Source: an uncultured Eubacteriales bacterium (lineage in GTDB: Bacteria > Bacillota > Clostridia > Lachnospirales > Bianqueaceae). From it: a stretch of DNA of 33,338 bases. Positions 14,511 through 17,902 of this stretch are shown here, one piece after another. A model generated the notes under the pieces. That model was not told the DNA's origin and did not search any database. It saw only the letters and a list, made by a program, of their open reading frames with translations. Location: contig CADBPG010000128.1 of NCBI GenBank assembly GCA_902796435.1, positions 1 through 33,338 on the forward strand, in the 5' to 3' direction. Within the stretch, counting starts at the first letter, position 1. Each line of letters opens with the position of its first letter. The translations under genes were made by a program, and so were the position numbers.

Positions 14511-14540
14511 GACTGTAAAAACATAATACTTGAGGCACGT

Positions 14541-14559
14541 GACAAATCGCCTTCGGCGA
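14541..14559 (+). other. Small GC-rich hairpin upstream of the lipoprotein gene
   Basis: AAATCGCC-TTC-GGCGATTT is a perfect 8-pair inverted repeat between the reductase stop and the lipoprotein start. It lacks a T-run, so it is more likely an mRNA structure than a complete terminator. Confidence 0.5.
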
Positions 14560-14589
14560 TTTCGAAGGTTATCTGAAAGGGGAAAGAAT

Positions 14590-16005
14590 ATGAAAAGAGC
14601 AAGATCTATCTTATGCATGATCCTGGCGGCACTTTTAGTGCTGTCCCTGGTCGGCTGTAAGGAAAAACCGGTGGAAGAGCCCACGTCGGAAGCTTCTTCC
14701 GAAACAAAGGAAGAGTCTTCGGTAGAAGAAAGTGTACCGGAATCCTCCGAGAGCAGTGAAAGCGAGGAGCCAGAAGAGGAACCGGAACCGGAAACTGAAG
14801 ACACGGCATATATCTATGATGATTTCGTGCTGAATATACCGAGTGCCTATGTGGACCTGGTCGAAGTCGTGTACGGAGATCCGGATCCGAATACCTTGTT
14901 CAAAGTAACCGAGATCGCTTCTAAGGAAGCGGCTGTGGCGGACGGCAACAGTGAGGACGATGGTTCTGGCTATCTGTTCAGCATTGCGGCTGTCAGCGAG
15001 GAAGAAGCACAGGGCCTGGTCAATGAGGACGTGCCCGGCAACCGTGTCTTCGCGGTGGATCAGAATGGTATCTACTATGTCTTCCGCTTCCCTACCGACG
15101 TACGTTTCTACCGATCCACCCCGGAAGAGATGGACGCGGATCAGGATCTTTGGACAGAACTGATCGCCTGGGCCAACAGCGTCCCGGAGACCTTTGTGGC
15201 AGATAATGCAGGCCTTCTGACGGAAGCCGTCCTGGACCCCCAGCCCGAGTCTAAGACAGCAGATCCGGAGGAAGTCCTTGCGGAGGATCCTTTTGAAGGT
15301 AAGTGGGCCTGCGGCCGCGCTTCCATGGAGATCGCCAAGCTCGGTGAACAGTACAAGGCTCAGGTCATCTGGGGCAGCGCAGCGGATACCGCAACGTACT
15401 GGAATTATGTTCTGGAATATGATGAGGCCGAGGGCTGCCTGAACGGTACCGGCGAGATGGTCGGACGGGTCTTCCAGGAAGACGGGTCGATCGAAAGTGA
15501 AGAACACACCACGGACCAGCTGGTCACCATCCGCCTCAATGACAACGGCAATATCGTCTGGGAAGACCTGATCGATAATGCCGGCGCGGACATGGAGTTC
15601 GAATATGCGGCCTATCAGCCGGAGATCCCCGCAGTCGATGTGATCGCGGATGAGTATTTCCGTGCTTTGAACAGCGACCAGACCCCCGCGAGTGCGGCTC
15701 TGGTGGTGCTGCGCTTTGCCGACCAGAATGAACTGTGGAACGCACCAGGTGCAGAGTTCAGAGATCAGCTGCTTGCGGCCTGGGAGTCTTTGAGCAAGGA
15801 TGAGCAGCAGGCCTTCGACAGAGTATTCATGGATGCGGTCAGTATAGCGGACAACGCCTATGCAGATTGGTCTAGTGTACAGACCTTCATACATGAAATG
15901 GGTCTGGAGGATGAGTTCCTTGCCCTCCGTGAGAGTCCGCTGGCGGAAAAGAGCTATGATCGCCTGAAAGCCTACACACTGACGATGGGCAATAGCAACG
16001 AATAA
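14590..16005 (+). CDS. Unrecognised extracytoplasmic lipoprotein
   Basis: A 471-residue protein starting at ATG 14590 behind GAAAGGGGAAAG. Residues 1-22 form a lipoprotein signal with lipobox LVGC and lipidated C23. Residues about 27-75 are a Glu/Ser/Pro-rich linker that would extend the domain from the membrane. A domain at about 77-205 (YIYDDFVLNIPSAYVDLVEV to the SVPETF region) has alternating beta strands. A second domain at about 235-345 begins DPFEGKWACGRASMEIAKL and looks like a small beta-barrel. The C-terminal 100 residues are helical. Strong acidity suggests a cell-surface location. I do not recognise the family. It probably shares a transcript with the FeS reductase, though this is only positional. 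Confidence 0.75.
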   Translation: MKRARSILCMILAALLVLSLVGCKEKPVEEPTSEASSETKEESSVEESVPESSESSESEEPEEEPEPETEDTAYIYDDFVLNIPSAYVDLVEVVYGDPDPNTLFKVTEIASKEAAVADGNSEDDGSGYLFSIAAVSEEEAQGLVNEDVPGNRVFAVDQNGIYYVFRFPTDVRFYRSTPEEMDADQDLWTELIAWANSVPETFVADNAGLLTEAVLDPQPESKTADPEEVLAEDPFEGKWACGRASMEIAKLGEQYKAQVIWGSAADTATYWNYVLEYDEAEGCLNGTGEMVGRVFQEDGSIESEEHTTDQLVTIRLNDNGNIVWEDLIDNAGADMEFEYAAYQPEIPAVDVIADEYFRALNSDQTPASAALVVLRFADQNELWNAPGAEFRDQLLAAWESLSKDEQQAFDRVFMDAVSIADNAYADWSSVQTFIHEMGLEDEFLALRESPLAEKSYDRLKAYTLTMGNSNE

Positions 16006-16008
16006 TAA

Positions 16009-16050
16009 AAAAGGATCCTGATCCATTATACGGACCAGGATCCTTTCTTA
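16009..16050 (+). terminator. Intrinsic terminator after the lipoprotein gene
   Basis: AAAGGATCCTG (16010-16020) pairs with CAGGATCCTTT (16036-16046); the stem continues with ATCC and GGAC, and TTTCTT follows. Confidence 0.85.
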
Positions 16051-16112: not shown

Positions 16113-16486
16113 GTGGATACAAAAATTAAAAAGCTGGGTTTTGATCCACGAAATGGATCAGAAGAGTAGATTTTGATTTTTATATCCACCGGTCATTCAG
16201 AATCTGATTGTAGGGTGTGGATATAAAAATGAAAAATATGGAAGATGATCCACAAAATGGATCATCTTGAAAGATTCTTTGATTTATATCCATTGCTATG
16301 ACTGGGCAAATGCTGGCGGTGCCTTAAAAATCCATGAGATTCATGGATATAATTTTTGAAATGCTTGATTCTGATCCAATTGATGGATCAGAATCGATTT
16401 TTTTTATTTTATATCCAATGGGCAGCAAAGTGTTAAGAAGAAAGTGTGGATATAAAAATGGAAAATGCAGGATTAGATCCAATTTG
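16113..16486. repeat. Array of about 77-base palindromic repeats
   Basis: Three full copies lie at 16113-16189, 16217-16293 and 16343-16418, and a left half-copy at 16446-16486. Each starts with (G/A)TGGATA(T/C)AA and ends with the complement ATATCCA. Each has GATCCA and TGGATC around a 3-5 base loop at its centre. The inner stems differ but stay paired: AAGATGATCCA/TGGATCATCTT in the second and GATTCTGATCCA/TGGATCAGAATC in the third. The stretch 16048-16579 has no convincing gene; it holds this array and the terminator of the MFS gene. Confidence 0.88.
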
Positions 16487-16521: not shown

Positions 16522-16557
16522 AAAAAAACTTGCAAGCACATTTATCCGCTTGCAAGT
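16522..16557 (-). terminator. Intrinsic terminator of the MFS gene
   Basis: On the minus strand ACTTGCAAG and CTTGCAAGT form a nine-pair stem followed by seven T residues. Confidence 0.85.
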
Positions 16558-16579
16558 CATTTTCTATGGAAAAGAGTTC

Positions 16580-17788
16580 TTACTTTTTCTTCTGGTAGAT
16601 GGTGACGGCGGTCAGCATGGCCAGCACGCCGATGACAGCGCAGATGATGAGGGAGATCGTATATCCGCCGCTCCAGTCATAAATATAACCGATGATGCTG
16701 GTGCCAAAGGCGTTGACGATGGACATGACCATGGAGACCTTCGGATAGGTGGCGGAGTACTGTGCGGTGCCGAAGGCATCCCGGCAAAGCAGGACCAGAC
16801 TGACGGTGGGCAGGGTATAGACGACGCCGAACAGGACCGCGAAGGGGATCATCAGGCCGGCAACATGCACGGTCAAAAGCAGCAGCGCCGCAGTAGTGAA
16901 GATGATGCAGTACAGGATGATGGTACGTTTCGCACCGATCTTGTCGGCCAGTGCGCCGAACAGGAGTTTGCCGCAGGTATTGGCTACCAGACAGGCGGAA
17001 AGCATGCCGGAGCCGATGGCAGCGGCGAACCCGAAGGAGGTGGCCACGCTGGGCATGTGCGGCGGGAAGGAGGAGATGAAGGCGACCAGGACGGCGTAAC
17101 CGAAGGCCAGCAGCAGGATGGTCTTGTTGATACCGGAGGCCTCCTGGTTTTGTGTTGCCTGTGTATCTGTGGTCTCGGCCTTGGTGTAGCCCATGAGTTC
17201 CAGATCCAGGTCTTCCGCGCGGAAGGCGATGGGCAGCAGAATGGCCGGCAGATACATTGCCAGAATGATGGCACCGTCCACTACGTAGGCCAGCCGCCAG
17301 CCGGCTTTTTCGATAATGGCGGAAAGCACGGGAGAGAACACCGCTCCGGCAATTCCGCTGCAGCCCATGGCGATACTGGTGATCAGTCCGGTGCTGGAAT
17401 AATACCAGTTGGTGATGATCATCGTGACGGCCACATTGCCCACAACGCCGGCTGCGAAGCCGCGGAGGGCGTTGAACAGGTACAGCGGGATCAGGGAACT
17501 GCAGATGGCCAGCAGCATGGTGCAGCCGGCAAAGACAACAGCGCCGATGATCATCAGTTTGCGGAAGTTCGTGGAGCGCAGGTACTTGGCGGCCCACATG
17601 CCGCCGACCGCGAAAACCAGATTGCTGATCGTGAGTGTCATACTGACGCTGCCGCGTCCGACGCCCAGTTCCTCTGCGATCGGAGAGAAGAACAAGCCGG
17701 AGACGTTGGTCAGCATGCCCATGGAAGCGGCTGCCATACCGCAGATCGCGATCAGGACCAATAAGTATTTTCCTTTGAGGAGTTTCAT
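16580..17788 (-). CDS. Major facilitator superfamily transporter
   Basis: The 402-residue product has about twelve membrane segments in two halves and an MFS layout: first helix LVLIAICGMAAASMGMLTNV, SPIAEELGVGRGSVSMT, a central cytoplasmic loop (about 195-225) rich in Thr/Gln/Glu, then LLFGALADKIGAKRTII, the conserved loop of the second half. The SxxAxELGxxRxxVS pattern and conserved Tyr-rich segments resemble the oxalate/formate (OFA) antiporter group, which moves small organic anions. I start at ATG 17788 (MKLLKGKYL), where the conserved sequence begins. An upstream in-frame ATG at 17902 would lie before the promoter. The ribosome site is weak. It is monocistronic, with its own promoter and terminator. 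Substrate unknown. Confidence 0.88.
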   Translation of the reverse strand: MKLLKGKYLLVLIAICGMAAASMGMLTNVSGLFFSPIAEELGVGRGSVSMTLTISNLVFAVGGMWAAKYLRSTNFRKLMIIGAVVFAGCTMLLAICSSLIPLYLFNALRGFAAGVVGNVAVTMIITNWYYSSTGLITSIAMGCSGIAGAVFSPVLSAIIEKAGWRLAYVVDGAIILAMYLPAILLPIAFRAEDLDLELMGYTKAETTDTQATQNQEASGINKTILLLAFGYAVLVAFISSFPPHMPSVATSFGFAAAIGSGMLSACLVANTCGKLLFGALADKIGAKRTIILYCIIFTTAALLLLTVHVAGLMIPFAVLFGVVYTLPTVSLVLLCRDAFGTAQYSATYPKVSMVMSIVNAFGTSIIGYIYDWSGGYTISLIICAVIGVLAMLTAVTIYQKKK

Positions 17789-17833
17789 CAGAGGATCCGC
17801 CTTTTTTATCTTTAGATTAAAAACACTAGAACT

Positions 17834-17862
17834 ATAGTAGCAAAATAAAAAGTCAGCGTCAA
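17834..17862 (-). promoter_or_regulatory. Sigma-A-type promoter of the MFS gene
   Basis: TTGACG (17862-17857) and TACTAT (17839-17834) on the minus strand have a 17-base spacer. It is back to back with the argC promoter, the two -35 boxes being 11 bases apart. Confidence 0.75.
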
Positions 17863-17873
17863 CTGAAAATCCC

Positions 17874-17902
17874 TTTACGAATCCGAGAAAACAGGTTATC
17901 AT
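17874..17902 (+). promoter_or_regulatory. Sigma-A-type promoter of argC
   Basis: TTTACG (17874-17879) and TATCAT (17897-17902) have a 17-base spacer, 38 bases before the argC start. Confidence 0.6.

Follow-up and report, generated by a model that had tools for sequence, protein, structure and literature searches.

A BIME-like array of putative protein-binding dyads between convergent genes of an uncultured Eubacteriales bacterium

The DNA considered here, called the window, is a stretch of 33,338 nucleotides from an uncultured Eubacteriales bacterium of the gut. A lipoprotein-like gene and an MFS-type transporter gene converge in it on an intergenic gap that measures about 575 bp and is A+T-rich, the G+C content of the window being 56%. 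Three palindromes of 74–75 bp and a half-copy lie in this gap, at 16114–16481 (Table 1). These units and the distances between their starts (104, 126 and 103 bases) are those described in an earlier sequence-only reading, which had also rightly set the array apart from CRISPR: whole units are palindromic and only 69–70% alike, and the spacers measure 29 and 51 bp. The extent of the array was likewise correctly given, but the element proper is larger, running from the hairpin at 16006–16050 to about 16563. This first hairpin probably represents a degenerate initial unit, as suggested by its partial match to the unit model and by its alignment with the first unit of a second array in the same genome. 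The window units are not the product of chance, since their predicted folding lies 5–8 SD below that of dinucleotide shuffles, and since the pattern TGGATAYA-N45..75-TRTATCCA has six matches in the 2.67-Mb genome, all of them within two arrays, against none for a reversed-pattern control.

Table 1. Features of the array and its flanks in the window, and Y1_Tnp genes of the genus discussed in the text.
Feature	Position	Strand	Remarks
Lipoprotein-like gene, faces the next gene	14530..16005	+	ORF; orthologs adjoin the MFS gene in two sister species
Terminator-type hairpin 3' of the lipoprotein gene	16006..16050	.	Inverted repeat I5; partial unit-model match, 24.9 bits
Palindromic unit A, 75 bp	16114..16188	.	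81.2 bits, model R1 (training set includes unit A); fold z −7.0
Spacer, 29 bp	16189..16217	.	
Palindromic unit B, 75 bp	16218..16292	.	80.3 bits; fold z −5.0
Spacer, 51 bp	16293..16343	.	
Palindromic unit C, 74 bp	16344..16417	.	76.8 bits; fold z −8.3
Spacer, 29 bp	16418..16446	.	Read off the sequence
Half-unit D, 35 bp, TGGATA...GATCCA	16447..16481	.	Missing in the C158 copy
Second terminator-type hairpin, CTTGCAAGC/GCTTGCAAG	16522..16563	.	Inverted repeat I9; common to the C158 block by alignment
MFS-type transporter gene	16580..17902	-	ORF; orthologs at 68-75% identity
Y1_Tnp (RAYT-like) genes of the genus	L054 about 170-2170; L055 2662-4668; L056 4541-6556		

The second array is found at the end of contig C158 and is 83% identical to the window array over 436 aligned bases, which take in units, spacers and the terminator-like end hairpin. 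The block common to both extends through the second terminator hairpin, and the C158 array begins with a unit that aligns with the window hairpin at 16006–16050. Because the alignment spans all of these parts, what was copied is one block of some 0.5 kb rather than three separate palindromes. A comparison of orthologous loci, suggested by the sequence-only reading, shows that in two sister species the gap between the MFS and lipoprotein genes measures about 70 bp and has one terminator hairpin but lacks an array; a third sister species has a different neighbour beside the MFS gene. The diverged second block and this array-free orthologous site bear out the earlier proposal of a mobile palindrome. 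The site reflects either gain of the array in the window lineage or loss in the others, between which one locus cannot decide. The gene neighbouring the C79 locus was considered as a lead to a second array-free site and set aside, since the comparison is not clean: its ortholog lies among other genes in the sister species G001 and G002.

With a covariance model built from 11 units, arrays of these boxes are recovered from about five loci of the window genome and, in two sister species, from about six or seven and five loci, respectively; the third sister species, a member of the same genus, shows no TGGAYA array. Among 295 genomes of the order, nothing credible came up beyond the genus, only one isolated weak match. 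In a pattern scan of GTDB contigs, true matches were confined to two MAGs, one from sheep abomasum and one from the rumen; matches in Streptomyces and elsewhere were rejected, being non-palindromic and coding-like as judged by eye. The element has no match in phage, plasmid and viral collections. Tandem amplification of a unit together with its spacer is visible in C330, C29 and C181. At G002:C186, beside groEL, a single unit of hybrid appearance stands in place of the three seen at G001:C121, which would fit recombination between units. About nine of eleven independent loci scored by simple ORF calling are in convergent position, one of the nine being an array with another box word (GGAGAG, see below) and the left gene at C158 having been read by eye; by comparison, 2 of 22 neighbouring pairs are convergent in the ORF list of the window. 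Repeats of other kinds were also seen in these genomes. The last ~1400 bases of L136 (G001:C69) hold a different tandem array, with repeats of ~60 bp (CAGTGGGTCA...ACATACTG), which sits at the 3' end of a gene distantly orthologous to the one that adjoins the single unit on C224 of the window genome (G000). G002:C244 (L015 3239-3547) has, near the contig end, two copies of a 120-bp stretch that lie 189 bp apart and are 93% identical.

Across the family, the conserved features are the boxes TGGAYAcAAA and GATCCA-N5-TGGATC, the unit lengths and the spacers. The basic piece is about 36 bp long and carries two inward-facing boxes, TGGAYAcAAA ... GATCCA, the profile of the half-unit being TGGACACAAA ... 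AAA ... TTT ... GATCCA. Two such pieces placed head to head across a 5-bp gap make up the palindrome of about 75–77 bp. The half-unit measures 35–37 bp in 34 units, with one half-unit of 34 bp. A G precedes the TGG at the 5' foot in 21 of 34 units and gives GTGG; this foot, to be compared with the GT[AG]G that adjoins REP palindromes, is absent from the GGAGAG and GGCGGA words described below. Spacers measure 29, 40 or 50 bp (30 and 51 once each), and an 18-bp spacer occurs at three flanking half-units, read once from the sequence and twice from coordinates. These classes of 18, 29, 40 and 50 bp differ from one another by one helical turn. Tested for a period of 10.5 bp, the spacers give a Rayleigh R of 0.98 (31 spacers) or 0.99 (21, each counted once), on hand-assembled lists in which the 29-bp class dominates, so that the independent weight for phasing sits in the 18-, 40- and 50-bp classes. 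Over their full length, ten 29-bp spacers show some similarity (0.36 against 0.30 when shuffled), and some may therefore share descent, which would account for part of the constancy in length. Their middle 19 bases are no more alike than expected (0.32 against 0.31 shuffled, p 0.12). Spacer length is held more tightly than spacer sequence. Intrinsic curvature was considered and rejected, since a wedge model gives a z of 0.0 for the window array, i.e. an average value, and mostly positive values elsewhere, and since the periods in the helical range that A/T tracts show overlap harmonics of the repeat length.

The compensating changes in the inner stems, on which the sequence-only reading laid most weight, are present in the window (AAGATGATCCA/TGGATCATCTT and GATTCTGATCCA/TGGATCAGAATC). 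In the window genome, arms pair somewhat better with their own partners than with swapped ones (7.92 versus 6.90 pairs at positions 7–20, p 0.01), although the C49 units of the same genome are devoid of this extra inner pairing. In the two sister species, by contrast, the arm interiors are unpaired beyond the boxes: 21 units give 5.0 own-partner versus 6.0 swapped pairs over the same positions (p 0.998). Scrambling only the interior between the boxes gives a mean z of −2.9 in the window genome and of −0.36 in the sister species. Covariation is thus a property of most copies in the window genome and not of the family. Running the covariance model on other genomes recovered further copies, but these do not preserve the pairing, an outcome that the sequence-only reading had itself named as counting against it. 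The step from covariation to a folded RNA or a cruciform is therefore not supported for the family, and the folded RNA was rejected, Rfam having no match in the window at gathering score. Box symmetry and helical spacing are kept and inner pairing is not, a pattern indicative of double-stranded DNA.

Arrays built on two other box words have centre spacings (41–43, 54 and 64–65 bp) close to those of TGGAYA. The GGAGAG word is found on contigs C163, C169 and C211 of the window genome and on C363 of G001, in arrays with spacers of about 6–8, 18–19 and 28–29 bp and in which some units abut. Genome G016, from another genus of the family, has about eleven loci of GGCGGAWAAA units of 38–39 bp, set in series 26 bp apart (once 27); its same-facing boxes give two 41-bp steps and one 53-bp step. 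Upstream of rubrerythrin, G001 and G002 carry a TGGAYA array (L014 2880-3250 and L043 5992-6350), and the same gap in the window genome, on C163, holds two tandem GGAGAG arrays 306 bp apart (L131 about 838-1400), the two flanking genes being apparently the same in all three. The different words may form one system. It is a tentative possibility that uncultured Clostridia-type bacteria have a class of chromosomal arrays on which proteins dock and whose word (TGGAYA, GGAGAG or GGCGGATAAAA) varies by array or genus, with a geometry (centres at ~41, 54 and 64–65 bp) that is kept; one architectural machine would then have changed its DNA specificity. In G016, two shared end-like sequences, CCGTGTCCACTCTACGGGGTACAGTTTA and GGTTACGTCTGTAAAATGGTGTAAATTGAG, adjoin GGCGGA arrays near contig ends on C2, C38 and C43 (L044, L106 and L109) as well as on C5 and C20 (L102 and L103). 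They are perhaps insertion sequences that target the arrays.

In iteron-like and operator arrays, dyad boxes are repeated at whole helical turns. The dyad boxes of the present arrays are spaced likewise, but they occur at many chromosomal loci, are duplicated as blocks and are absent at an orthologous site of sister species. A closer likeness in form is offered by REP, BIME and REPIN elements, which are extragenic palindromic units in alternating orientation, assembled with linkers into arrays that lie mostly at gene ends; unit and linker amplify in tandem, and inverted pairs form hairpins (PMC2817692, PMC3116915). Preferred inter-REP distances of 71 and 110 bp were described in P. fluorescens SBW25, and the length of inter-REP segments was reported to vary substantially in Stenotrophomonas BIMEs (PMC2817692, PMC3116915). 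The window array consists, in the same way, of extragenic palindromic units in alternating orientation with linkers. However, its ~36-bp piece is only weakly self-complementary, its hairpin pairing is seen in the window genome and absent from the 21 sister-species units, and its spacers are locked to helical steps. In addition, no array is found in the inspected flanks of the Y1_Tnp gene. Since neither conserved hairpin pairing nor the REPtron arrangement, a transposase gene with its repeats on either side, is found, and since the phase-locked spacing differs, the array is BIME-like in form and not a member of the REP/BIME/REPIN group. The TIR families of TIRtrons are clustered inverted boxes that do not form strong hairpins and that carry a GGGGWSAS motif, in genomes encoding a long Y1 protein (TIRYT) with a C-terminal extension, whose gene the repeats flank (PMC3733652, PMC6006769). 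The present arrays are also clustered inverted boxes in a genome with a long, C-terminally extended Y1 protein, but their words are unlike GGGGWSAS, and the inspected flanks of the gene have no such repeats.

The reading that we favour, and to which we attach about even weight for and against, is that of a mobile BIME-like array of putative double-stranded protein-binding dyads, rather than of a folded RNA. A sequence-specific, probably dimeric protein would bind the boxes cooperatively, the phased spacers keeping repeats and dyads on one face of the helix, so that a nucleoprotein patch could form between convergent genes, at their 3' ends, and may there take up supercoils or stop read-through. 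The block would be copied to new sites, and the number of units would change by duplication and recombination; the array-free site would then reflect gain rather than loss. This docking-array reading draws on the phased spacers, on half-unit lengths that stay fixed in sister species without interior pairing, on other words at the same spacings, on the 83% block duplication, on the array-free ortholog and on the mostly convergent loci. A pure binding-site model leaves the extra inner pairing of the window genome unexplained, and the average predicted curvature of the window array also weighs against this reading. A non-autonomous REPIN/BIME- or TIR-type element, mainly selfish DNA whose copying would fall to a RAYT/TIRYT (Y1/HUH) transposase that works on single-stranded hairpins, is rather unlikely. 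It would account for extragenic palindromic units arrayed with linkers mostly at gene 3' ends, for the block duplication and the empty site and for the GTGG foot, and the genus conserves a protein of ~670 aa that joins an N-terminal Y1_Tnp (RAYT-like) domain to a long C-terminal extension and the C-terminal part of which has a weak, below-cutoff match to DUF1015. Yet the inspected flanks of its gene hold no box array, and thus no REPtron or TIRtron arrangement; the gene is present in 16 of the 19 genomes of the family, among them that of the genus member devoid of TGGAYA arrays, so that its presence does not track the arrays; and hairpin pairing is not conserved in the sister species. The first two of these findings were taken to speak against mobilisation by this RAYT-like protein.

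That the array is a structured RNA or 3'-UTR device, whose hairpins terminate transcription or stabilise the mRNA of the flanking genes, seems improbable. The strong folds of the window genome (z −5 to −8), the terminator-like hairpins at both ends and the convergent placement would suit it, but it finds no match in Rfam, no unit-specific pairing in the sister species (interior z about −0.4) and no meaning for helical spacing. Less probable still is a MITE of a conventional DNA transposon, the boxes being sub-terminal transposase sites: block duplication and the array-free ortholog are compatible with it, but phage, plasmid and viral collections contain no match, and the spacing fixed across three words would be left unexplained.

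Repeats of the REP/BIME type are best known from proteobacteria, and the reason why cells keep them is an open question. If spacing, and not sequence, is what stays constant under different words, this would suggest a role for such repeats as DNA-protein scaffolds where convergent genes end. This scaffold reading predicts a DNA-binding protein, which can be searched for.
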